Assembly (NCBI GenBank): GCA_963971405.1
Contig: OZ020484.1
Span: 14,260,001-14,324,000 of the forward strand
Length of the DNA: 64,000 nucleotides
Origin: Psococerastis gibbosa
Taxonomy: Eukaryota > Arthropoda > Insecta > Psocodea > Psocidae
Direction of reading: 5' to 3'
In this document: piece after piece, positions 23,045 to 63,759 of the stretch
How positions within the stretch are numbered: position 1 is the first letter of the stretch
Layout: each line of letters opens with the position of its first letter
Program-made: the position numbers and the translations under genes
The notes under the pieces: generated by a model
The model's database searches: none
Told to the model about the DNA's origin: nothing
What the model saw: only the letters and a program-made list of their open reading frames with translations

Positions 23045-25794
23045 ATGGATCGTCACAAGGGAAAACGCGAATATGCAAGCGGCAGTGAAAAGCGGAAAAT
23101 CGCAGCAGATAAAGAAAACAAAATTCAAGATGTTTTATCTAAAACGCGCCGTATAACGGATTTTGTAACAAAAATAGAGACGGGTCCATCTACTCCTAGT
23201 TCTACTTCTAATTTTGTTGAAATGATGAGTGGTGATTCTGATTTTCCTGCATCTTCTCAAGTTATTGCTAGCCCTACCCAAGAGGTAAGAGTTTGACTTT
23301 AATTACTTAATTAAGGTGACCGCAATCAAAAATTACCGACCCCACTCACCCCAGTAATTCTTATGGAATTAAAAATGGGGGACTCCTGTTAATTTACTGT
23401 ATGAATTAAACCTACCTAAACTTGAGTCGGCCATGCCGAAAGGATTGTTTACAAAATTAATTACAACTGTAATTGTTTTACTTGTAGGCAGTAATTGATA
23501 ACAATGACGAATCCGAAAATACTGCTGATGATGGATTTTGCAAAGAAAATGACGTGGGATTGTGGCCAGCAGTTCTTAGTCAACAACACATCGACTATTG
23601 GATCAAGAAAGGAAATTTGGAAACTCAGCATTGTAATGAAGATATTTTGAAAGAAAAAAGCTTGGGACAAGTAGATGCAGTGAAAAGAAGAAAATGCCAT
23701 GCAAGTTTATTCCTTCGTCAAACTCAGGCAGGCAAGTCTATAAGCCGCTCTTGGTTATGTTTTTCACCTAGTACGGGGAAGCTATACTGCTTTTATTGTA
23801 AATTGCTCTGCAAATCAGCAAATCAGTTTTCAACTGAAGGGTTTGCTGACTGGAAGCATGCGTCTGAGCGTTTGAAAAGACATGAAACTACCGTAACGCA
23901 TTTGCAAATAGTTTGCCAATTTAAGCATCTCTCAAACGAGGCAATGCGTATTGATCGTGAGTTGGCCACACAAGTGAAGGAGAGCATTGCTTATTGGCGA
24001 AACGTTCTAAACAGATTGATTTCCGTCATAATATTTCTTTCTGGACGAGGACTTGCCTTTCGAGGGGACAACGAAATTTTGGGATCAACCAAAAATGGCA
24101 ATTATTTGGGAGTCCTTGAGCTAATTGCACAATATGATCCGTTTTTAGTAGGCCACTTAGAGAAGCATGGAAATCGTGGCAGTGGTAGTGGCGGCGTTAA
24201 CTACCTATCTGCCCACATTTGCGAAGAATTAATTGCGCTGATGTCCACCAAAGTTAGCGATGAAATAATTAAACGCTTAAAAGCCTGCAAATATTATTCG
24301 GTTTCGGTAGATTCAACAACTGACGAAGGCCATATAGATCAAATGACTGTGATTGTCAGGTATCTAGAAGAAAGCACACCAAAGGAAAGATTTCTTAGTT
24401 TTATGCCAAACCAAGGCCATAAAGCTAAAGAATTATTTGATGGCCTCAACAAAGTTTTAAAAAAGTTCGGCCTGGATTTGAAAGATATTCGTGGGCAGTC
24501 GTATGACAATGCTTCCGCTATGAGTGGAGAATATAGTGGTCTACGCACTTTGGTGCTAAATGAGAATCCTTTGGCTTTATGGGTTCCATGTTTCAATCAT
24601 TCCCTCAACTTAGTGGGCACAAAAGCGATGGACTCCTGCTCCCAATCGAAATTATTTTTTAGCTTTCTTGAGCAAATTTATGTATTTTTTACAAGTTCCA
24701 CAGCTCGGTTCAACGTCCTTTCAAATGTTCTAAAAAGTGCTGCGAAGAAGTATGGCCACAACATACCAGTGCCCAAAAGAATCAGTTTAACCCGGTGGTC
24801 CTCAAGAGCGGAAGCTACTAATAGCCTAGTTTTGGGCTATAACGAAATACGAGAAGTCCTTAAAGATCTCTCCGAAGAAGATGTCCAAGCAAGTGGACTC
24901 TATTTGCAAATTACCACGTTGGAGATAGCAATTTACGCTGTTCTTTGGAACGATATACTGGCAAGGGTGAATGCAGTAAACATCAATCTCCAGAATCCAA
25001 GAATCGACATTAATACTTCGATCAGTGTGATGGAGTCCCTTAAGATCTTCATTGGGGAATTTAGGGATTCTTTCCAAGAATATGAGAAAAAGGGTGTTGA
25101 ATTGTGTGGGCACAATTCTTATAAATCGGAAACTTTGCGGAAGCGGATCCGAAATGTGAGGCTAAATCCTTTGGATTATGGGAAAACTGAGGAAGCTGAA
25201 TTCAGTCATAGCGAGAAATTCCGAATCGAAAGTTTCATTCCCATAATTGACCAGTTTATGCAATCATTGGATCGGAGAATTTCAGCATATGAAGACATAA
25301 ATAGGAAATTTGGATTTTTACAATATTTAGAAAAAATAAGCCCTGATGATTTGAAAACTAGGGCAGAGAACCTGGTGAGTTGTTACACAGGTGACTTGGA
25401 CGGTAACTTGTACTTCGAGCTAGTACAGTTTCGTGAGTTTGTGAAATTATTTGTGATAGATGATGCACAAAAAAACAATATAATCGAAGAAAAACGTATC
25501 AGTTTTGAACGGTTCATGTACAATTTGATTTTAGAAAGAGGAGTAGCTGATAGCTTTCCCAATGTAGAAGTACTTTTGAAGATGTACTTAGTTATAATGA
25601 GTGGCAACATAAGCAGCGAGCGATCTTTTTCCGTACTAAAACACATAAAAAATCCTCGTCGCACCAGTTCTTCTGAAGCTCGGCTTAGCCATCTTTCAAT
25701 GCTGAATATAAATCACGACATAGTGGCAGCGTTAAATTATGACGATATAATTGACAGTTTTGCTGTAATAAAGAGTCGAAGAGTGCATCTTTAA
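23045..25794 (+). CDS. hAT transposase (TTF-type zinc finger, DUF4371/ZMYM1-like), one intron, apparently intact
   Basis: Exon 1 is 23045-23284 (80 codons, basic, starts MDRHKGKREYASGSEKRK); a 203-base GTAAGA...TAG intron leads to exon 2 at 23488-25794 in the same frame, giving 848 residues with no stop. The longest open frame alone appears to begin at GTG 23554, but the splice explains the upstream in-frame sequence. From exon 2 on: a TTF-type zinc finger (SWLCFSPSTGKLYCFYCKLL ... HETTVTH), the DUF4371 region, the first catalytic Asp in SVDSTTDEGHIDQM, the second in SYDNASAMSGEYSG, PCFNHSLNLV, and the C-terminal hAT dimerisation motif SGNISSERSFSVLKHIKN with the third acidic residue. It acts on the terminal inverted repeats of its own element. 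The exceptionally long frame and matching ends suggest recent activity. Confidence 0.93.
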
Positions 25795-36825: not shown

Positions 36826-38166
36826 CGTTTGACTACCCTAGCATGACCAAATGGAGTATTTGACATACAAAAAAATAGATCTCCGGAGATAGCGTTACAC
36901 TCGTGTGAAAGTCAAACGGCGTGAAGGGTGAAGGAGACACCAAGATGTCAAATGAAAAAAAAAAAAAAAAAAAAATAAGGAAATGGAATGAAAAAGAAAT
37001 TTTTATTTTATTTTATATTTATTTGTATTTCCTATTTGTTCAATTTTACATGTCGGGCTTATTGTAGAGGTCTAGCGCCTATTATGAGTTCTTATCGTTG
37101 CTAGTTGTTCACCGCCTTTAATTTTTTAGTTTGAATTTGCCGTATCTGTTTATGTTATGCAAATTAACGTAAGCGGTGCTAGCTGACCTATAATTCGGGA
37201 CTTTAATCCAGGTATGCCATGCTAGGGCTGCAGACCATTAAAACAACAATTAAAGTGGAAGTGGCAGTCTCTTACAACTGTGGAGGGGGTTTCAGTTAAT
37301 TCGTTTATTAATAAAGTCTAAGTTAACCACTTATGCCTAGTCGTAGAGTAAAAAATGCAGTGACAATAAAAATAATTATCGAAACCGCTTTTAAACAAGT
37401 ATTACATCATGTCACACACATACACTGTACACTATGGCACATAGCCTATGTGATATTCTAAACACCAAGATTTAATAAACAGTTCTGAAAGAATTTATGA
37501 CACAACATCAGTTTAAGTAATTGCGAAAATATTTATCCCACTCGTGGTTTTTACGTATAGTCTGTATTTGCATCGATTTGTGGACACACTACACAGTGAA
37601 TTTTGATAAAATTAGTAGGTTCATAAAAGTCATACAGGTACACCTGTACCTCGGGATAATAATTATTGTTATTTTGGGTTAACTGAATTTTTTTTTTTTT
37701 GGGGGGGGGGGGGGGGGTTACCCCGGTTACGGTTAAAGAAATTATTTCTTAAAAACAGCTCTAACGATTTTTTTTTTTAAATTTCCTATACACCTATATT
37801 GTACGAGTTGTTACCAACGTGAACACAGCGCCCACTTGATCGCTTTCCCCTTGATAGTTTGGTGCGATTTTCCCCTCAACACACCAGCTCACAGAAATCT
37901 ACTGAAGTACACTTTACGGTTTTGCACCGACTATTCACCAAGCCCATTTGCTCCAATTAGAAATTTCTCAGCTTCTGATGCCGACTTCGAACGTCCGTGT
38001 GCACTGGGCCTAAGCCCTGTGTACTGCTGGGCCTAACACAAGAGACGACAGTACCCGCTGTATTATAACATATAATTATTACTTTCTTCAGCAGCCTAGC
38101 TTGTTATTTGCTCTTAAATATAATCGAGTTTCTCTCGCATATAATTTGAACCGATTGTCCACCAGC

Positions 38167-38484
38167 AGCCTGATCGGGGCGTTTATAATACCGGTATTTA
38201 TTTAATCCACTGGTAAACAAGATAATTTTATAATGGAAAGTGCTATTCAAAATTTGTTTGTTTACAGTTATAATCCTAGGGTATTTATTTAACCCCGGTA
38301 TTATAAACGCCTCGATCAGACTGCAGCAGGCTGATCGGGGCGTTTATAATACCGGTATTTATTTAATCCACTGGTAAACAAGATAATTTTATAATGGACA
38401 GTGCTATTCAAAATTTGTTTGTTTACAGTTATAATCCTAGGGTATTTATTTAACCCCCGGTATTATAAACGCCTCGATCAGACT
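38167..38484. mobile_element. MITE family C, two head-to-tail copies
   Basis: Copies 38167-38322 and 38328-38484 are nearly identical (arms with CTGATCGGGGCGTTTATAAT), separated by five bases. A direct tandem dimer rather than two independent insertions. Confidence 0.85.
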
Positions 38485-38774
38485 GCAGGTTAACGAATCG
38501 GGCTCTAATGGGATCCTGTTGTTGACGTCTTGAATATTGACGATGAACGTTCTATGCATTTAACGGAATGTTACCCATAAAGAAAATACGCTGGCCAATG
38601 CTGCTGAAGTAACAAATTGAACACTGCGCGATTTTTGCGCTTGGCAACTTTTAAGGTCACTGCATTGTACTAGTTTTGGTCAAAGGGAAATGGAAGTCTC
38701 TGGGGGTTTGTTTACAACTAGGATGATTCTTCTGATGAGGAAGTGGGCAGTTCGTCCTCACCAGAGACGTCCTG

Positions 38775-41700
38775 TCAGAAAGCCGTGTCGAATACGCCCA
38801 TGGACGCGGAGATGTCCGGGTCTGTGGTACAGCAGTCAAGAAACTCGTCCATCGTCACGACACCGTCGTTGTTTAAGTCCATTTTCTGGCAACAGAGAAT
38901 TGCTTGACCTTTGATTTGCAGTAACTTACTGATATTTTGCATTCCCAAATAGTTCTGAAATACTGAGCTCCGTTTTTTAAGGAGACTTTAAGCCATCAGA
39001 AATTAAGCCGGATAAAGGGCATAAAAAACGGTGCCGTTACACAGTTGTTGTATTAGCTACGATAAAGAGAAGAGGGGTGACGGGGTGACTATAGGGATTT
39101 TTGAGTTCTTGGTTACTGGTACCTACTGTTACTAATACAACTGTATTATTAAAGATGGGGAAAAGAGAGTTAGACTATAGGGATTTCTTTAGTTCTTGGT
39201 TACCGTTACTGTCATAGACGGTCCATTTCTGGTAGGTACTGCTACGTACTCGGGGGGGGGGGGCATAATTGGACAACCTATGAAGGACGAATAGGGGATT
39301 CCGTTGAGAACCTGAATGTATTTGTTAAGACATGATGAGGTGCAGCAAGTTGTAAAGCTATTTCGATCTGCGTTGTTGCCTGATTATTATTATTGCTGAA
39401 CACAACATCCAATAAAGAAGTGCTCATCAAGCGAGAGGAACCTCTACCAGTCCTCAGGCCTAGACCCTCAATCTTTGTAAGTAAGTTTGTCTGGGCGTTC
39501 CTCACCTGAAAAATATTCTCAACCTTTTCTTTGAGTGCAGTCTCCTCGAGGGGCTCGCCACACTTGCCCATGAGGTCGTAGACGGCAGCAATCATCTCCG
39601 TCATTTCTTCTTTGGTGATGGCGCCGTCCCCGTTGATGTCGTACAAGGAGAAGGTCCACTTGAGCTTCTCTTCAAGGGATCCCCGACACAAAATCGACAG
39701 TCCAATCACAAAATCCTGCACAATAGAGAAATTATTATAATATAATTATAATAAAGGTGAAACGATAATAGTAAAGACTTTTCCCCTGTGGTTAATTATC
39801 ATTAATGGCTAGGCAGGGTACATTATGCGTGTATAACTGAATAAAATGGGTCTTGGGATGATAGTATGTTGTCACGGTGGGACTTCTGACCTGTTGTACC
39901 GATTCCCGCCGTCGAACTCGGTTTGCCTTCATCTGCCTCCAGGATTCTGATGGCGTTGGTTAGGAGATGTAAGTCTTGCAGATCTTCTGTGGTTTGGTTC
40001 ACCCCTATTTTTCTAGGGCGACGGGGAGATCTATTCCCACTCAGTGTGGCTAGCCAAACGGCCCGTGCAGTTCTGCTGGCATCCATCCTCTCAACGTGAT
40101 TCAACCGCAGTCCACAATAATCTTCTTCTTCTTCAGCCAACGCCCGTTCTTGGCTGGTTGGCTATTTGACGCCGTGCCGCACATAGTAGAGCTGGGCATC
40201 CCTCCTGTGTCGTAGTTTGGTCTCTACCTCAATGTCAATGCAGCCGAATAGGTGATCGGCATTTCCTTCTCCTTGGAAACAGAGGTGGAATTCGGATGAA
40301 TTCGTGATACCTATTCTGTGGATGTGGCTCTGGAGGAAGTCGTGTCCTGTGGCTCTCTTAAACACGACTAGGAATGATAAAATGTTTAAAATTGCTCGAC
40401 ATAAGACTAGCCTATATGGCGAAGCTTTTCTCGTCCAAACTGCAAGGGAGTGGAGTAAACTCCCATGTAGCATAAGGTCCCAGCCATCCCTTGCCAATTT
40501 CACAAAAAAGCCTCAGGTCTCACCTGCCACCCCGGCAAAGGTCGGTATCCCAGCATTAGGCCTTGACACAGTCCATGCTGTTTTGAGTTCTTTTTGGGCA
40601 GTTAGGCCAATACTTATTGTTGTTTTTCTCGTTTTTGTTTTGTTTTTGTTTGTGTTTTTATTGAATTATGGAAACTTTAGGACAATACTAACAACACTAG
40701 TCTTAAGAATCTTGATTGTTGTAATACTAACCATCCCTTGCCTTACCTGGGTTAGCCCATAGAAGATTTCCTCTTATGGTTCGCCCAGGTAAAAATAAAA
40801 CCGTTATTTATTTATTTTATTTATTCGAAACGCTACCAAAGCGATGAGGGATGGTTTTTGCTAGGAGTGGTTCCCACCGTCTGCCAGCTGCTCTTACTTT
40901 CCAGCCCACAATAACGGAACTTAATTTACAAATCAATTTTACAGTACTAGTTACATACGCCCGTCATGATAGGACAATAAAAATATAAAAATTGTGTTAA
41001 AAAACTCAATTGGCTTGTAAGGGGGATCAGTTATTTAATATTATTAGTTAACATGGTGTTGGCATACACGGGGGGCGGCATATAGCAAGGGATAGCTAAG
41101 GCAACGGAAAATTAAAAAAAAACTAATGGACGGAGCTGAAATTTCGGGTTGATTTTCAATAAATCTAATGTGGCAAAGTTACAACTCTGTTTCCCTTGAG
41201 GCTACGTATCCGTTTGAACTTTGTATTCAAAATTTTAACTAAGTTAATACAGCTCCAGCACATAATACTGTACTGGAAAATGATGATAAAAATTGTGGGC
41301 AAAAACTGATATGTGTCAGTATTTCTTTGAAAACCTGAGGAAATTGGAAAAATATATTGTATGTAGGTACATTTGTACGATATAAACTCTTGGATATAGA
41401 AAACTCTACCCTATATTCAGACGCCTCCTTTTTTTTGAAAGTGGTTCGTTGGGTACACATGTTTCCTTTCCTTTGATATTCATTCTATCAACATCATTTG
41501 CATGCCTTGGAAAACTGAGAAACTTTTTGTAATCTAAAACTTTTTTCAGAATCCCATCAGTTGCCGGTTTTCATGCGTTATCACCATCGTTATTTTTAGT
41601 TGCAGGCATATTTTAATATATACTGTATTATAAATGAGGTTGTGGGTAAACGTACTCGTGGAGGGCGGTTTACATTATAGGGACATAAAATTAAGGAAAC

Positions 41701-47700: not shown

Positions 47701-50700
47701 CAGTAAGTTGAAGTAACGTTAGGTTAATTTGAATCATTTTGCATCACTGAGAAACTTACACCTTAACTTACTTCACCTTAGGAAACTCCCGATTGAACTG
47801 AGGGCGGCGAGAAATGCTACTTACTTCCCTAAATTGCTTACAGAGACCATCTTTTAGAGAAAGCTTTCTACGCTGTCACTGAGGAACAATAACAATGACA
47901 AAACTACCTGATTTCGACGATATTTTGACGATTTTACTTTACACTTTCTTGCCAATTACTTGTTGATTACTTGTATTTAATTTAACAGAATTATATATGT
48001 ATATATTTGTTAATTTATTTTATTTTATGACAAGGACCCTATATTTAGTGTTGGATAAACTGTATTAGTCTGGTGGCTTACGGCCAAAATATATCTCCAG
48101 CTTGGCTTTTTTGCACATGCTATTTCAGGGGGATATTCGTCATTTTGCGTAGCAGTGCGTAGATATTCATCTTAAGATCAGTTTTCCATCTCGGTGGCAC
48201 CGACCTATTTCGATTAATATTTCCCCTGGCCAATGCAAGATTTGACTCGTATCTGTACTTGGTTAAGTCATGCTTTCGCCTGTTTCATTGCGTCAACGGT
48301 AAACTTGTCTCAGCTTGTCCATTATCGCTTTTAGCCGGTGAAGGTTGGCATCAAAAACGTATAGGTATAAGTTTGCCAAAAATTCATGCTGAAACAATGC
48401 TAAAATTGTCTGATATCCATGGGGTCATTGGCATTGGACAAGGGACCTATGGGTCTATCAAAAATTACAATTACAGTAAGGCCAGATTTCCATCTCGGAC
48501 GTACAGACCTATTATTATTTTATGGCTTTCCAATTTATACGTAGTATAAGGAAAGCTTTGTGATGGTCGAAATTTTCGATTCCGAGATTTCAACGTATTT
48601 ACACGTTGTCAGGTCCCAGGAACCCAAAAAAGTGGTTTTTACGAAATGTCTGCCTGTCGCCCTGTCTGTCTATCTCGGTGTATATGTGTATGTATGTATG
48701 TCTGTCTGTTCATCGATTTCCGGGCAAACTACTCGGCCGATTTTGAAGAAATTTTGCAAGTAGGTTCAAAAAAATCATAACTCGAGAGCATTTTTTTTAT
48801 TTTGGGCTAACTCAATTTGGGGGGGGGGGGGTTTATTCTCAAGAAACTCCAAAAAAAAGTCTAAAAAAATTATTTCTCAAAAAAGGGCTCCAACGATTTC
48901 TTTTAAATTCACATATCTTGTAGTCATTATTACTGTTAAAAAAATGCAGGGGGTCGCTTGCCCCTTGATAGTTTGCTTCTGGGGGTAAAAAAATAAAAAT
49001 AACTAAATTTTCATGAAAAATGATTAAAAAATAATTTTTCTGCGAAACCTTTCTATCGATTATTTCTACCTTCAGGCATGTTTTAGGTTTAAATAATTAA
49101 ATTACTCGTGACTCCGTGGAATTTCATGTTAATAAACAAAAAATAACAAAAACTTTTAGTGACAACCCGAATTAATAAAACCCAAATAATCGTTAAGAAA
49201 TTAGCTTTGTCAAAGAAACCCACTTGTGTTAGTATAAAACCCTGAGCGCTTTTGGCAAGAACTGCCACCACAGAGGGAAACCCACTAGCACAGTTACACC
49301 TTATCTGCGATTTGAGACTTGCTCAACTCGAGGAGAAGATACATGTGACTAGGGAGAGGAAACCTTGGTTTATATAGGACTGGGAGCGGGGGGAGGAGGG
49401 GGTGGTAAGGGGCGTGGCTGGTTACCTATTCCTAACCTACTATAGCTAGATCTATTAGAGGGGATGATTGTGTGAATGTTGTGTCGTTTGTTAATTTTTC
49501 CCTATTGTGTAAAGCTCTTTTGATTTCAACATTTTCCAAAAAATTAAAGTGTAACTTTTCTTTATTTTGTGTAGGGTTGTCCAACCGTGAGGATCGAATG
49601 TGTGATTTTCCGAGTTAAGGTGTTTCGCGAATGTGCTGTTGGTGTTGGCGTCTCCTATACCTGTTCTATGTTCTCTGACCCTATTTTTAAAGCTTCTGCC
49701 TGTTTGGCCTATGTAAATTGCGTTACAATCGTTACAATTTAGACGATAAACTCCATTGCCTTTTTCCTTTTCTGGTTTGGTTTTGCAGTTCATGAGTTTA
49801 TTGGCCAAATTGTTGCGGTTGTACGGGGCTGGTGTTTTGTCTGTTGTAGAAGAAATGAGGTTACTTATTTTTTCTGTGATTTTTTCTATGTATTGTATCC
49901 TGAAATATGATTTATTGGTTTCCTGGTTTAAGCTCTCTGGGGGGTAAATTAGTTTGAGGTTGTGTTTGATTTTGTGATGTCGTAAGATTCTGTCTATTAG
50001 ATTGAGATTGAAATTGTTATTTTGGGCAATTTGTTTTATTGTATTTAATTCATTATTATAGTTGGTTTCATTCATAGGGATGTTAAGGATTCGAAAAATC
50101 ATACTATGGAATGCTGCGTGTTTGTGCTGGAATGGGTGAGAAGAATCAACAGGGATCATATTATCGCTATGGGTTTCTTTACGAAATATCTTGAAGTCTA
50201 GGGTACTATTATTTTTGGTGATGGTGAGGTCTAAGAAGTTCAGGGAGTTGTTTTCTTCTACTTCCATGGTAAATTGGATTTTTGGGTGAATTGTGTTGAT
50301 AAAACATAAGAACTTGTCTAGTTGTCCGTTACTTCCTGTCCAAGTGCAGAAGATATCATCTACATACCTTGTCCAGAAAGATATACATTTAACTAGGGGA
50401 TTTTTATTGAGTAGAAGTTTGTGTTCGAAGTTATCCATAAAAATTTCAGCAAGAAGGGGAGAAAGGGAAAAACCCATAGGTAGGCCTATTTTTTGTTGGT
50501 AGTAGTCGGATTCGAAACGGAAATAGTTTTGATGAGTGCATGTGTCTAACAGAAAGAGGGTCTCAGAAATAAGGCTGTTCGAAGTATTATTGTGATAGAG
50601 TGACTGGGCAACTAATTTTCGTACTTCGGGTACGGGAATATTAGTAAACAGATTTTTGACATCGAAAGAGACGAGTTTGGCATTGCTGGATAAGGAAAGG

Positions 50701-53700
50701 TGCTTAAGGCGGGAAACCAACTCGAATGAGTTTTTGACGCTGTGGCGGGATGTGAAGTTTGATAGCTCGCGAATGTGTTTGTTGAGAAAACTGGCTACTT
50801 TGCTGGATGGGGCACTGTTATACGAAACTACTGGGCGGATAGGTTGATTGGGTTTATGAAGTTTAACCAGACCAAAAAATGAAGGAGCTACGGGGTTCAT
50901 GTTGGTAAATTTATAGGCTATATCTCGAGGTATCGTAGTAGAGCTTTGTTTAATGGCTTTTTTTGGTTGCTTTTTGGAATTTGTTTGTGGAGTCTACTTT
51001 AAGTTTTACGAATGTGGATTCATCAGAAATGAGGTCTAAGACTTTAGAAACATAATGATGCGTAGGTAAAATGACAATAGAATTTCCTTTATCCGCCTTG
51101 GTGAGTGTAAGGTTATCTTGGCCTAGTTTCTTTTTTATAGATTTAGTGTTATCGTTTTTGTGTGTAAGTTTGACGTTTTTCAGGATATCTGCTGCTATGT
51201 GTTTTTCATTATTGTGGTTTTTAGGCTCAATTCAGTGTCTGACATTAAGTTGGTTAACGCGTGTTTTTGTTTAGACCTATATCGGGGCAATACTTGAGGC
51301 CCTTGTTGAGAAGTTCCATTTCTTTTGTGTTGAAAATCGTGTTAGATAAGTTGACGGTACGAGGATAGAATTTATGTGTTGTGATGGGTAGTGTAGTGAG
51401 TGTCTGCGCTGAAGGCGTGAGGCCTTGACCTACCCCAGTCTGCATCGATCGATGAACGGGGTTAGACCGGGAACACTCGTTAGTCCCGCGCATCTGATGT
51501 TTCGTGTCACGATGTGATGTGTGATGTATTCCGTTGGATTTGTTATTTTGGTTTTGACTCAGTTCTTTTATTTTTTTATTTAGTGTTGTGCGTTTTTTGT
51601 AAGTGATGCCACTAATTTTTGTGTATATTTGATCTTGGAAGGTGGTCCATTCTAAAAAGCGAAGTTTGAAAGATAATTCTGAATGTAAAACTTTAAGGTA
51701 AAGGCTTATGTTGTCTCTGATTTTGAACCATTTTTTGATTTCTTCTGCTAGCCAGACTTTCTGGGCGATTCTAAGTGCTTTATACTAACACAAGTGGGTT
51801 TCTTAGACAAAGTTAATTTCTTAACGATTATTTGGGTTTTACTAATTCGGGTTGTTATAACAAGTTTTTGTTATTTTTTGTTTATGTTTTAGGTGTTAAA
51901 TTGAGTAACGAAACCGGACAGGTTGCTTTCCCAAAAAACCATTTGGTTTTGAGCAAAAATTTTGTTTTTTGAAAAAATGATACATAGCCTAATTCACGCT
52001 TGAATGCATTGCGTGCCCTGCCATTATTGCTGTGTGATGTGTTGGTCTGACCTATCTAGAAATTACCTCACTTCCAGTGACGTCAGATGGGAACCCCCCC
52101 CCCCCCGAAATATCGAAAATTTAACCATAGGAAAATTATTTACCATGAAATTATTCCTTTTCTCTATCTGCTACTTTTGATAAATTGGAAAGCATGTTCG
52201 AGTAAACTCGGACCGGTTCTTATTATTTTGCTAGGACTTTTTATGGGCTCAAGCCTACTTAAAGTGGCCCATAGATCCCTTGTCCAATGCCAACGACCCC
52301 ATGGATTTCGGAAATTATTTGTATTGTTTCCGTTTGAATTTTTGGCCATTGGCAAACTGGTATACGGTCTCGATGTCAGCCCTCACCGGCTACAAGTGAT
52401 AATGGACAAGCTGAGACAAGCTTACCATTGACGCATTGAAACAGGCGAAAGCATGACTTATAGTCCACGCAAAATTAGAAAAGTATGGACATGGAATGTT
52501 TTGATCCTGTGCAACACTGTAAAAATATTGCTTGCACCATTCTGTGTTACCTTGCTGCCAATACATTTTCCCTATGCAGATAGGCTATAATGAAAACACT
52601 TATGACTGTTTTGTTCGAATGTTGTATAATAAACTTCTAAGCTTCTGTATTCTAAGTTAAATGTGAAAAGGGCGGATATGCCGGACACTCGATCGTAGGG
52701 TGTCATAAAGTAATTGATAAGTTCATATTAGTTTTGGTATACAGTAAATGGCCGTGACTAACACCAAATGGCCACAGTTTTTGGAGCTCAATCGGCCTGA
52801 GATCCCCAGTGGCTGATACTGTTTGCGTCAAAACTTCTAAGCTTCTGAATCAAATATTAAAAGTAGGTAACGTATCCAGTAAATTTACATTAAATTCAAC
52901 CATATTTTCATTTGCAAGCTGCATGTTACATCTAATCCTCCTCATCATCTTCTTCTGATGAATCCCCCGTATTTATAGATGTAATAAATCAGTGTGTCCT
53001 TTTTTGGGTTACTATATTACTGTATCCATAATAACTGCCCCGAAGTTAACGCTTTAAAAATACGGTTGGGTGGCTATTCCACATGAAAACAAAAGTTGTC
53101 AATTTTTGAAGACAAGTGGAATGAGGTGTAAAAATATATATATGCAACATTTATGATCTTTCCGCCAGTGACATTTTCAAATTTGAAGAAAAACTGACAA
53201 GGCGAATAGCCACCTTAGGAGTATGGTTATTCCTATTTATATGTTTTCTACAAATCCGTCCTTAGAAGGCACTTTCACCACTCAAAAGCAAAGGACTATT
53301 CTTCCAGGGCTCTCGTATTTTTTGTGCATTGCATGCGGCCGCAGCATAGGTTCTAGGTTGGCCCTAATTATGGTAGTGTTAAAAAATTAGCCTTTACCAA
53401 TAAGAACGGGGTTTGTAGGCTGGGGCTGTGGTATATCCAGGCCGTTGGTTCCCATTAATGCCTTCGCATTGAAGGTACCTTCTGCAACATTCTACTATGT
53501 TACGGGGCTACGGGCGTTATCCATAACTATAACAGATCTTGTATCGGCCAAAGCAATTGTGTCTCAACCTACTCTTTGAATACATAGGCTGTCACTGTCA
53601 TGCCTCATGATAATCGGTATTGCAGTCCTTCATCGCTTTCGTTGATATAAGAAGCACCGAAGCACGTTACTCACCCAGCCTTCACTAGCACCGGGATGCA

Positions 53701-56329: not shown

Positions 56330-56818
56330 TCAATTCTAATTTGCTATAGAACCCCTCTTTAGATCTCACTTAAGCCTAAACTTTAAAGAAATCACGCTAA
56401 ATAATCAGTGCAATCATACATGATTGACATTTGACTGCACGCAAATTTAATATTTCATATATGCTCATTAATATAAAGCCTAAAAGGCCAAAGCACATAA
56501 AAACCGAATATTAGGCATTTAAATTTCTGGTAACAACGTAAATATGACCAAATTGCCCTTTAACAACCAACGCCACAATCTTAATGCAATTATTAATGAG
56601 CAGAATATGCATACATGAGTTGCTATAATAATGGGCCCATAAAAGCCTAATAATAGACCTCATTATTTCATGTGATGACACTAATATTACCAATATAATA
56701 CTGTTTATGCAACCAATTTGAAAATGTCACAGTGTTATTGCACTGATAATATTTAATAAGATGTTTATAAAAGCGGAGACTCCGTGAACAGCACACTAGA
56801 AATATCGGATGCCTAAAG
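56330..56818 (+). promoter_or_regulatory. Conserved upstream region of the secretory peptide family
   Basis: The 5' flank of copy A is shared with copies B (58020-58475) and D (63200-63660), and the proximal ~170 bases also with C (59157-59330). Conserved pieces include CCCATAAAAGCCTAATAATA, ACCTCATTATTTC, a GTCACA(T/G)TGTTATTGC block and the TATA box 25-35 bases before the likely transcription start. Promoter identity is inferred from position and conservation among copies. Confidence 0.6.
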
Positions 56819-57400
56819 ATGTTCCACTTCCTATTGTGTTTGGTATCCCTGGCTGCTTTCGTCGTTGCCGTTAATGGCCAACACACAGCCACTCCGGCTC
56901 CAGGTAGGTTTTTTTATGCGGAAATTAATTTGGGAGAAATACTCTGGCTCTGGGCGTCGATGTTCATAATAAACATAATTGTCTCTCTATATATTGAAAG
57001 TAGAACTGACTCTCTCTCACATTATAACCTGGATAATTAGAAATATTATCATCAAAAAGATCATCCAAAGAAATCCCCGGATATTTACTATACATAATTA
57101 TACATACCTATATACATAATTACTCCCTATTAAAAGTAGAAGTTTACTGACTCTCACTCATGTATTAATTAAAAGCATAACAGGTAATTGCTTGAATTAC
57201 TACAGTCATCAGTAATTCCCTACATTCGGGCGAACAAATAGAACCTAACATTGAACAATCTCCTATTTACAGGCTTTTACATGCGGCAGAATGATTTCGT
57301 AACTTTGAGGATATTTTCAAAAGGCAAAGAGGCTCCAACAACTTTGGCGACTTACGAACTTAAGAACTTACGCCTAAGTCATGAAACGCCAAACCGATAA
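56819..57400 (+). pseudogene. Secretory multi-peptide precursor-like gene, copy A (exon 1 intact, exon 2 shortened)
   Basis: Exon 1 (56819-56903) starts MFHFLLCLVSLAAFVVAVNG, a textbook signal peptide, then QHTATPAPG, and ends at a GTAGGT donor. A TATA box (TTTATAAAAG) lies about 50 bases upstream of the ATG. Exon 2 begins at 57273 after a CAG acceptor in matching phase and reads GFYMRQNDF, then departs from the peptide-repeat frame seen in copy C: one base is missing relative to C, so the read frame becomes VTLRIFSKGKEAP and stops at 57398-57400. The coding homology also ends at about 57355, where an unrelated repeat begins. Host gene family of unknown function. Copy A keeps the start and splice signals but probably makes a truncated secreted product, if any. 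Confidence 0.6.
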
Positions 57401-58475
57401 GTGAATGGTAGCTCATGTAACAGAGTTTTGAAATACCAAAAAGAGTCCATTGGACACTGCGGCCAGCACAGTGTTAACCTTGAAGAAAATTGCTTCAGTC
57501 AGGGAATGTGAGAAAGAATGATAAGGAAAGAATATATGGGAACAGGATTCGCATCTTAGTCCCACCTTGACGCTGACCACTGCACCAAACCCGAGGCATT
57601 CTTTTCAGTTTTCCCTAACTTTACCGCACTTACGATACTCACTCATACTTCCAATTTCCAACATCTCCCCACCCTCATAGCTTATTGCTTTCTTATTTGT
57701 ACACTAGCTCCTATTATGAATTTCCTTTTGGAATAGGACGTAGGCTTAGTACCGGTATTTGAAGAAATTATTGATAATTCATGCCTCACTGCTTGGCACA
57801 CTGTATAGTAGCCGAAAATTTAACCATAGGACAATTATTTGCCATTAAACACCTCTCATTAGCTATCTCGCTACCTACTAATACTAACTTTGATGAATCG
57901 GAAAACATATATGAATTGACTGCTTCTGCTTCTTACATATTATGTTTCTGATGGATTTTCTCTTATATGATGATCGAAGATATCACCGAAATAGCTGTTA
58001 AAGTAATCAGCAAAAGATCCCGGCCCTCTTTAGGCCTCACTTAAGCCTAAATTTGAATGAAGGAACGCTATGTAATCAGTGCAATCACAAAGTGTTGAAC
58101 GCAGACAAATTAAATATCTCATAGGTCCTCATTAAATTCTAAGGCCAAAACACATAAAAACCAAATATTTGGCATTTTAATTTCTGGTAACAACGTCAAT
58201 ATGGCCAAATTGACCTTTTAAAACCAATGGGCAAATTATACAGCAATTATATTAATAAGCAGAATAAGTTATTTGAGTTGCTATAATAATAGGCCCATAA
58301 AAGCCTAATAATAGACCTCATTATTTCATGTCAAGACATTAATGACCAACATAATACTGTTTATACAACCGATTTGAAAATGTCACATTGTTATTGCACT
58401 GATAATTTTTAATAAGCTGGGTATAAAAGCGGATTCTGAATCGGTGAACAGCACAGTAGAACATTCTGTTGCCCT

Positions 58476-58559
58476 GATGCTCCAATTCCAATTGTGTTTG
58501 TTATCCCTCGCTGTTTTCGTTGTTGCCGTATAGCCAACACACAGCCACTCCGGCTCCAG
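58476..58559 (+). pseudogene. Copy B exon 1 of the secretory peptide family (left arm of palindrome)
   Basis: TATA box GTATAAAAGC at 58421 and the same 5' flank as copies A, C and D. The exon starts MLQFQLCLLSLAVFVVAV, a signal peptide, but two bases are missing before the NG cleavage site, so the frame hits TAG. The donor (GTAAGG) is kept; no exon 2 follows. Instead the sequence turns back on itself. Confidence 0.7.
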
Positions 58560-58574
58560 GTAAGGTTTTGTTAC

Positions 58575-58663
58575 CTGGACCCGGAGTGGTTGTTTGTTGG
58601 CTGTATACGGCAACAACTAACACGGTGAGGGATAACAAACACAATAAATTGGAATTGGAGCAT
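58575..58663 (-). pseudogene. Inverted copy of exon 1 (right arm of palindrome B)
   Basis: Reverse complement of the B exon 1 region with moderate divergence, including its own donor (GTAA) and, at about 58703-58712, an inverted TATAAAAG box. The two arms face each other with about 15 bases between their donors. Confidence 0.7.
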
Positions 58664-59140: not shown

Positions 59141-59330
59141 TTGAATTTTGTGTCCACTAATAATAGTCCTCATTATTTCTTGTGATGACATTAATATTAC
59201 CAATATAATACTGTTTATACAACCAATTTGAAAATGTCACATTGTTATTGCGCTGATAATTTTTAATAAGCTGGGTATAAAAGTAGGTTCTGAATCGGTT
59301 AACAGCACAGTAGAACATTCTGTAGCCCTG

Positions 59331-60103
59331 ATGCTCCCATTCCAATTTATTGTGTTTGTTATCCCTTGCTGTTTTCGTCGTTGCCGTTAATGGCCAACAC
59401 ACAGCCACTCCGGCTCCAGGTAGGTTTTTTTATGCGCAAATTTATTTGGGGGAAATACTCTGGCTCTGGGCGTCGATGTTCATAATAAACATAATTGTCT
59501 GACTATATATTGAAAGGAGAGCTGACTCTCTCTCATCCACATTATAATCTGAATAATTAGAAATAATATCTTCCAAAAGATCATACAGAGAAATCCCCAG
59601 ATATTTACTATATACATAATTACTCCCTAATAAAAGTATAACTTTACTGACTCTCACTCATGTATTAATTAAAAGCATAACAGGTAATTGCTTGAATTAC
59701 TACAGTCATAGTAATTCCCTACATTCGGGCGAACAAATTGAACCTAACATTGAACAATCTCCCATTTACAGGCTTTTACATGCGGCAGAATGATTTCGGT
59801 GACTTTAGGGATTTTTTCAAAAGGCAGAAGGGCTCCAACAACTTTGGCGACTTTGGGGATTTCTTCAAGAGGCAGAATGATTTCGGCAACTTTGGGGATT
59901 TCTTCTAGAGGCAGAAGGGCTCCAACAACTTTGGCGCCTTTGGGGATTTCTTCAAGAGGCAGAATGATTTCGGCAACTTTGGAGATTTCTTCAAGAGGCA
60001 GAAGGGCTCCAACAACTTTGGCGACTTTGAGGATTTCTTCAAGAGGCATAAAGTATACGGAGATTTCGGAAACTTTGGAAATTTTTTCCAAGGAGGCCAT
60101 TAA
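59331..60103 (+). pseudogene. Secretory multi-peptide precursor-like gene, copy C (full peptide-repeat exon)
   Basis: TATA box GGTATAAAAG at about 59273. Exon 1 region is 59331-59419; exon 2 is 59772-60103 (CAG acceptor, phase 1, TAA stop). In the frame set by the acceptor, exon 2 reads GFYMR and then alternating blocks: type 1 QNDFG(N/D)F(G/R)DFFKR (13 residues) and type 2 QKGSNNFG(D/A)F(G/E)DFFKR (16 residues), three of each, ending in HKVYGDFGNFGNFFQGGH. Nearly every block ends in Lys-Arg and starts with Gln, as in neuropeptide-type precursors cut at dibasic sites with N-terminal pyroglutamate. Two lesions: exon 1 has about 4 extra bases compared with B, putting the signal peptide out of frame with the ATG, and the Lys codon of one Lys-Arg pair is TAG (59906-59908). 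No known family recognised. Also open in two other frames because block lengths are multiples of three. Confidence 0.65.
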
Positions 60104-63661: not shown

Positions 63662-63744
63662 ATGCTCCAATTCCAATTGTGTTTGTTATCCCTCGCTGTT
63701 TTCGTTGTTGCCGTATAGCCAACACACAGCCACTCCGGCTCCAG
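63662..63744 (+). pseudogene. Copy D exon 1 of the secretory peptide family (left arm of second palindrome)
   Basis: Almost identical to copy B, including the two-base loss that brings a TAG into frame before the cleavage site. Its 5' flank (about 62930-63660) duplicates 57730-58475, so B and D arose by duplication of a segment that already contained the palindrome. Confidence 0.7.
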
Positions 63745-63759
63745 GTAAGGTTTTGTTAC

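Follow-up and report, generated by a model that had tools for sequence, protein, structure and literature searches.

Insect precursors of the orcokinin and FMRFamide type carry a signal peptide and KR-bounded tandem peptides, KR denoting the Lys-Arg pair. Baramicin A, an antifungal precursor of Drosophila, holds tandem peptides between furin sites, among which IM10, IM12 and IM13 start with a Gln that is found as pyroglutamate (pGlu) and have a net charge that is not strongly positive (PMC8423362). The pre-pro-polyproteins of apidaecin-type proline-rich antimicrobial peptides consist of one leader followed by many near-identical short tandem peptides in variable number (PMC11549390). Here, we analyse a repeat at positions 59772-60103 of a 64,000-nucleotide stretch of chromosome 1 (chr1) of the psocid Psococerastis gibbosa (the window; assembly GCA_963971405.1, contig OZ020484.1, positions 14,260,001 to 14,324,000 of the forward strand). 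Judged from its sequence, the repeat is a dead copy, i.e. a pseudogene, of a family of predicted multi-peptide secretory precursors and lies in a chr1 tandem cluster. We put at about 0.68 the probability that this is a multi-peptide secretory precursor family whose products would serve as bulk effector or gland-secretion peptides, in host defence or exocrine function, and not as neuropeptides; bulk use is favoured because there are dozens of loci and because a cysteine-bearing branch has the same leader and promoter. The initial annotation of the stretch had proposed a secretory precursor with alternating Gln-peptides; its observation is real and its main inference is supported.

Like Baramicin A, the family would encode a secreted precursor with tandem related peptides between basic sites and with Gln starts, whereas Baramicin A has RXRR furin sites instead of KR, peptides of 23 residues with other motifs, and a gene in 1-2 copies that is Toll-induced; here, kappaB-like sites upstream of the genes are no commoner than expected by chance (1 in 15 genes, shuffle mean 1.29) and therefore lend no support to an immune role. 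No homology to a known antimicrobial-peptide family was seen in the precursors submitted, as no Pfam family scored above cut-off. With the apidaecin type the family has in common a leader and many near-identical short tandem peptides, but those peptides are rich in Pro and Arg and separated by RREAEPEAEP-type signals, while the present ones are acidic, rich in Phe, Gly and Asn, and bounded by bare KR. Unlike the orcokinin- and FMRFamide-type precursors, the family lacks amidation or a known motif, has many dispersed as well as tandem loci, and possesses the cysteine-bearing sister branch. By analogy, the predicted processing mode is most like that of insect multi-peptide effector precursors, and the family belongs to neither the Baramicin nor the apidaecin type: its sequence and its cleavage motif are different, and no immune signature emerged from the kappaB test.

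The window contains three copies, A to C, and the start of a next one. Exon 2 of copy C, directly preceded by the acceptor TTTACAG, translates from position 59774 as FYMRQNDFGDFRDFFKR-QKGSNNFGDFGDFFKR-QNDFGNFGDFF up to an in-frame TAG and from there as RQKGSNNFGAFGDFFKR-QNDFGNFGDFFKR-QKGSNNFGDFEDFFKR-HKVYGDFGNFGNFFQGGH to the terminal stop. As initially annotated, this amounts to three rounds of alternating 11- and 14-residue blocks, of the types QNDFGNFGDFFKR and QKGSNNFGDFGDFFKR, with Lys-Arg between them. Tandem Repeats Finder bears this out with a period of 87 bases, 3.0 copies, 93% matches and a score of 467, a result that rules out chance. Copies A and C are both damaged, as had been claimed: in copy C, the TAG is accompanied by a frameshifted leader, and in copy A the leader, intact and encoding MFHFLLCLVSLAAFVVAVNGQHTATPAP, is followed by a truncated, out-of-frame remnant of exon 2. 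For copy B, blastn gave no exon-2 match up to the promoter of copy C. The promoter region of copy A contains the conserved CCAAT...TATAAAAG block that is described below. The features are the following:

56423-56818, plus strand: copy A promoter region, sharing 92% identity with that of the open chr1 gene at 14.344 Mb (blastn, alignment)
56819-56903, plus strand: exon 1 of copy A, intact signal-peptide leader with phase-1 donor GTAGGT (blastn, translation)
57273-57353, plus strand: exon 2 remnant of copy A, frameshifted and truncated (blastn, translation)
58095-58473, plus strand: promoter region of copy B (blastn)
58477-58561, plus strand: leader exon match of copy B with an in-frame stop (blastn)
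58573-58663, minus strand: inverted leader fragment facing copy B (blastn)
59157-59327, plus strand: promoter region of copy C (sequence, blastn)
59349-59419, plus strand: leader exon of copy C, frameshifted and without in-frame ATG (sequence, blastn)
59420-59771, plus strand: phase-1 intron of copy C (sequence, blastn)
59772-60103, plus strand: exon 2 of copy C, Gln-peptide repeat bounded by KR, interrupted in frame by a TAG at 59906-59908 and closed by a terminal stop (sequence, Tandem Repeats Finder, translation)
63662-63746, plus strand: next tandem copy, leader match with an in-frame stop, running beyond the window end (blastn)

Downstream, a copy at chr1 14,325,161 is identical to copy C across 332 bases, and the surrounding 3.86 kb are 98.5% identical. 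Taken together with the damaged copies A, B and C and the next copy, this near-identical copy indicates that the window is part of a partly decayed tandem cluster.

Open, intact-looking loci, whose absence would have spoken against the initial annotation, exist elsewhere in the genome (409,210,807 bases in 68 contigs; published assembly span 409.21 Mb, PMC12559846). The 332 bases of copy C exon 2 gave at least 74 matches (best 40 of 52 candidates scored) and a precursor protein gave 105, of which one gene may contribute several. From 26 genome stretches, we built 28 open two-exon models in which KR-bounded blocks follow a predicted signal peptide, distributed over chr1 (4), chr2 (2), chr3 (1), chr7 (9) and X (12); they were chosen for openness, and the gene counts are lower bounds. 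Since many of the X models are near-identical, the 28 cannot be counted as independent evidence one by one. Copies that were broken, truncated or unpaired were excluded, among them those at chr1 14.3198, 14.3252, 14.3306 and 14.3353 Mb, chr3 46.581 Mb, chr7 31.821, 31.836, 31.838, 31.848, 31.857, 31.858, 31.863, 31.867, 31.874 and 31.893 Mb, and X 5.630, 5.653 and 5.787 Mb, together with further small extra loci.

All 28 models share one architecture: the first exon encodes the signal peptide and, after a phase-1 intron, the second encodes repeats bounded by KR, e.g. QQGSNNFGDFGDFFKR. The leader exon consists of 26-29 codons plus one base, e.g. MFQLSLVFLAAFAVAVYGNEDTTTRAP, and has a hydrophobic core in 28/28 models (11-residue Kyte-Doolittle mean 2.5-3.3), hydrophobicity being the basis for calling it a signal peptide. 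The intron measures 176-1135 bases, with the donor GTAAGT in 25/28 and the acceptor TTTACAG in 23/28; the acceptor was picked automatically with at least two KRQ required for chr3 46.578, chr7 31.826 and chr7 31.884, which biases these three towards KR, and that of chr3 46.578 is uncertain, another analysis having pointed elsewhere. Exon 2 starts with FYMR[K/Q]NDFG in 20/28 models, and the predicted precursors are 115-237 amino acids long. The two features expected of a multi-peptide secretory precursor, i.e. a signal peptide and a series of related peptides with basic pairs at their boundaries, are thus both present. Alternation of 11- and 14-mers, which had been proposed for the family, was found in the chr1 genes and the chr7 3.58 Mb gene but is not a family-wide feature: the genes at chr7 31.8 Mb mostly contain QQGSNNFGDFGDFF-like 14-mers, with the terminus QKGFG[D/N]FGNFGN[Y/F]F in 6/9 chr7 models, and the X genes contain 11-mers, a 43-residue segment QTTYIDENGHIHFAQGPN...GDFGDD and a final 14-mer. 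A further exon-2 subtype with ...QRQMGFNN..NFGDFFKR units was observed at X 3.517, chr1 31.758 and X 19.887 Mb. Concerted evolution of the units was considered and is not strongly shown, as DNA identity within genes (0.91) barely exceeds that between genes (0.88).

The array of copy C is also open in another forward frame and in one antisense frame (133 and 131 amino acids), and the KR frame had been preferred by the initial annotation. Comparison of paralogs favours the same choice. Over the opening 30 codons of exon 2, compared for all pairs of 10 representatives from 8 clusters, the proportions of synonymous and nonsynonymous differences (pS and pN) were 0.445 and 0.095, giving a ratio of nonsynonymous to synonymous divergence (dN/dS) of 0.15, and differences at codon positions 1, 2 and 3 numbered 187, 86 and 341; the leader had a dN/dS of 0.47. 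Among 8 gap-free representatives of 6 clusters, the ratio was 0.151 in the KR frame, which is the only forward frame under purifying selection; the two remaining forward frames gave 1.24 and 1.28, and the antisense frames 0.95, 0.21 and 2.29. The antisense frame with the low ratio contains 77 stops in 2276 codons of 17 genes, compared with 0 in the KR frame, for whose openness these genes had been picked. Frame-specific dN/dS and the antisense stops identify the KR frame as the coding frame, and among the paralogs the exon-2 KR frame is under strong purifying selection. Both Gln codons are in use, as are AGG and AGA for the boundary Arg, which suggests that the amino acid rather than the DNA is kept, the units compared having themselves been selected for Gln and a basic end.

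The boundaries between units were anchored on the aromatic-x-acid-aromatic-aromatic motif without requiring KR. In 17 representative genes, KR occupies 93/107 boundaries, the others being YR, MR and NW (2 each) and DF, NF, SQ, CY, KK, VR, RR and MK (1 each); across all 28 genes, KR accounts for 148/177, with MK 7, MR 6, RR 6 and KK 1. Gln follows the residue pair at 94/107 boundaries in the 17 genes, so the Gln reported after KR holds up, while pyroglutamate, cleavage and expression are predicted. The last unit stops at an aromatic residue without KR in 14/28 models (7 of them near-identical X genes), which fits the expectation for a cleaved array. Cutting the 28 models in silico yields 224 peptides of 95 kinds; 207 begin with Gln, 202 are net negative and 0/224 end in Gly, the signal for amidation. 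A copy at chr7 31848292-31849103 has a leader with an in-frame stop, and most of its KR sites are now KG, in keeping with KR retention only in working genes.

Conservation extends into the proximal promoter. Across 11 representatives, divergence is 0.21 from -120 to -45 relative to the ATG, 0.26 from -45 to 0 and 0.31 from -200 to -120; it is 0.44-0.49 in three blocks farther out (0.48-0.49 past -350), 0.49 in the first 80 intron bases and 0.52 in the 100 bases 3' of the stop. In most genes, the proximal block includes elements resembling CCAAT and TATAAAAG; the block is common to the sister branch. When it was searched genome-wide for other co-regulated genes, 39 of the best 40 matches (of 164 candidates) preceded a family leader by coordinates, the other lying at chr7 30.571 Mb, and the search did not point to a tissue.

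The leader gave 127 genome matches, many of them in an array at X 15.61-15.72 Mb, where a predicted gene for a six-cysteine secreted protein is repeated in about 74 tandem copies with a period of about 1458 bases; the orientation of this array switches near 15.667 Mb. A second cluster of this sister branch lies at chr8 30.93-30.98 Mb. Its exon 2 encodes GWLWCDWQNNIGYCKPFYRQMESRSITDYCKHCSMRRNDFAHSRDYFKLQPLPGALDAVRLGLPVCEIICDIWKVVVEFQELFH, with six cysteines, and was matched 86 times, 74 on X and 12 on chr8, 2 of the matches containing a stop. Leader and promoter are clearly common to the two branches, and the mature regions are weakly alike (SMRRNDF...DYFKLQ against the window array, 62.5% over 16 residues, E 0.02); hence, on sequence grounds, two kinds of mature region appear to be attached to a single cassette made up of promoter, leader and phase-1 intron. 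By eye, chr7 genes whose first units contain Cys (MRKNDFCNNNN...) seem intermediate. Stops were reported in many leaders of the X array; in the two copies read, the TAG lies just past the exon at the donor, which gives no sign of dead leaders there. Translated frames suggest that the donor of these two copies is GTTAGT instead of GTAAGT, making the stop intronic.

No close relative was found among described proteins. Seven precursors of the repeat branch had no Pfam family above cut-off, other Pfam and NCBIfam matches of the submitted members were likewise below it, and the Protein Data Bank (PDB) gave these members no match or one at E 0.71. PF08017 (fibrinogen-binding) reached E 3.4e-6 in one member, though with 26.1 bits against a cut-off of 50, and E 0.0058 in another; it was dismissed as low-complexity repeat similarity. 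Bacterial and archaeal genomes and viral contigs contained no relative, their pattern matches not being confirmed. No paper containing the peptide strings was retrieved, and literature searches on psocid silk, antimicrobial peptides, neuropeptides and Psocodea, partly swamped by common words, returned nothing on such peptides. The family appears to be without description in the literature searched. Its extent had been underestimated initially, the family being far larger and possessing the sister branch.

We propose that, in open members, exon 1 would supply the signal peptide and a short Thr/Pro-containing pro-segment and, after the phase-1 intron, exon 2 the tandem 11- or 14-residue peptides with Lys-Arg between them. 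The precursor would enter the secretory pathway, a proprotein convertase would cleave after KR, a carboxypeptidase would trim the basic residues, and the freed N-terminal Gln would cyclise to pyroglutamate. This would yield numerous short peptides that are acidic, non-amidated, rich in Phe, Gly and Asn and end in FF, mainly pGlu-QGSNNFGDFGDFF and pGlu-NDFGNFGDFF. Several observations weigh against this proposal. Besides the chance-level kappaB-like sites and the low dN/dS of one antisense frame, boundaries such as MR, MK, YR, VR and NW mean that not every site is dibasic, and decay may be under way in several of the 28 models, whose C-termini are aberrant, other copies being plainly broken. 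Furthermore, the last 80 intron bases are fairly conserved (divergence 0.26, gaps 39%), so that conservation is not limited to exons and promoter. Finally, KR balances the charge of the commonest repeats and could be a structural feature; charge alone is nevertheless unlikely to explain it, because KK and RR, each one transition away, would then be expected to be common.

This last point bears on the idea that the product is a structural protein, secreted without cleavage as silk, glue or egg coating, in which charge-balanced, aromatic-rich units of 16 or 13 residues assemble and KR is not a processing site. Psocids produce labial-gland silk, Lys-Arg offsets the two Asp of the commonest units, there is a Phe-Gly-Asp-Phe periodicity, and tandem amplification and a conserved core promoter would suit such a protein. 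We nevertheless consider it unlikely, as K and R are hardly swapped (1 KK and 1 RR beside the 93 KR of 107; 1 KK and 6 RR beside the 148 of 177), Gln mostly follows the site, the last unit is KR-less and ends at the stop in half of the genes (14/28), and the precursors are repetitive but short (115-237 amino acids). A separate scenario is a long shot: more than 100 cassette copies, largely on X, would provide self-assembling pGlu-(...)FGDFGDFF peptides, freed from polyproteins by one branch, and a six-cysteine partner from the other, for a silk, glue or defensive secretion that consists of short peptides in place of long fibre proteins. Improbable to much the same degree as the uncleaved protein is a neuropeptide or peptide-hormone family, in which pGlu peptides released by PC2-type cleavage at KR in neurosecretory cells would act on receptors. 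The signal peptide, KR rather than RXRR sites, the many near-identical copies and the N-terminal Gln would all suit it, but none of the 224 predicted peptides ends in Gly, and when 13 insect neuropeptide patterns were tried, 12 matched 0/28 genes and a loose sulfakinin pattern 1/28, a general amidation pattern likewise matching 1/28. So many loci, at least 28 open ones on five chromosomes plus the 86 sister exon matches, are atypical for a signalling peptide; gene number and missing amidation thus weaken this reading.

Amplification mainly on X could alternatively reflect a role in reproduction, e.g. as seminal-fluid peptides, or in conflict linked to the X, an interpretation that overlaps with bulk effector or gland-secretion peptides, so that the likelihoods given do not sum to one. 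X makes up 5.6% of the assembly yet holds 74/86 Cys-type exon matches, 12/28 open FGDF-type genes and, by hand count, 6/16 clusters (binomial p = 0.00015), although clusters are not independent and 2/16 rest on weak matches, one of which, X 11.53 Mb, has no leader by pattern. Given also that 16/28 open genes are autosomal and that the genome searches reported no match on a contig of the length of the Y, we regard it as quite doubtful. That the array is merely repeated DNA without function, its open frame arising by accident, is barely credible for the family and holds just for the dead window copies, one of which is the pseudogene with other open frames; frame-specific dN/dS and the conservation of splice sites, signal peptide and promoter over five chromosomes contradict it elsewhere.

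If expressed, these genes would constitute a peptide family not described before, in which the 28 open genes of a single insect encode more than 200 peptide copies. The family would also illustrate concretely how a secretory cassette of leader and promoter diversified into repeat-polyprotein and cysteine branches with heavy amplification on X.

Elsewhere in the window, an open frame at 39278-39745 (minus strand) resembles what we take to be an exon of an EF-hand potassium-channel-interacting protein, and there are two long open frames, one at 23488-25794 (plus strand) with a zinc-finger/hAT-type transposase look and one at 49491-50993 (minus strand) with the look of a Penelope-like reverse transcriptase with a GIY-YIG end. 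Two tandem copies of 161 bases with 98% matches lie at 38163-38488.
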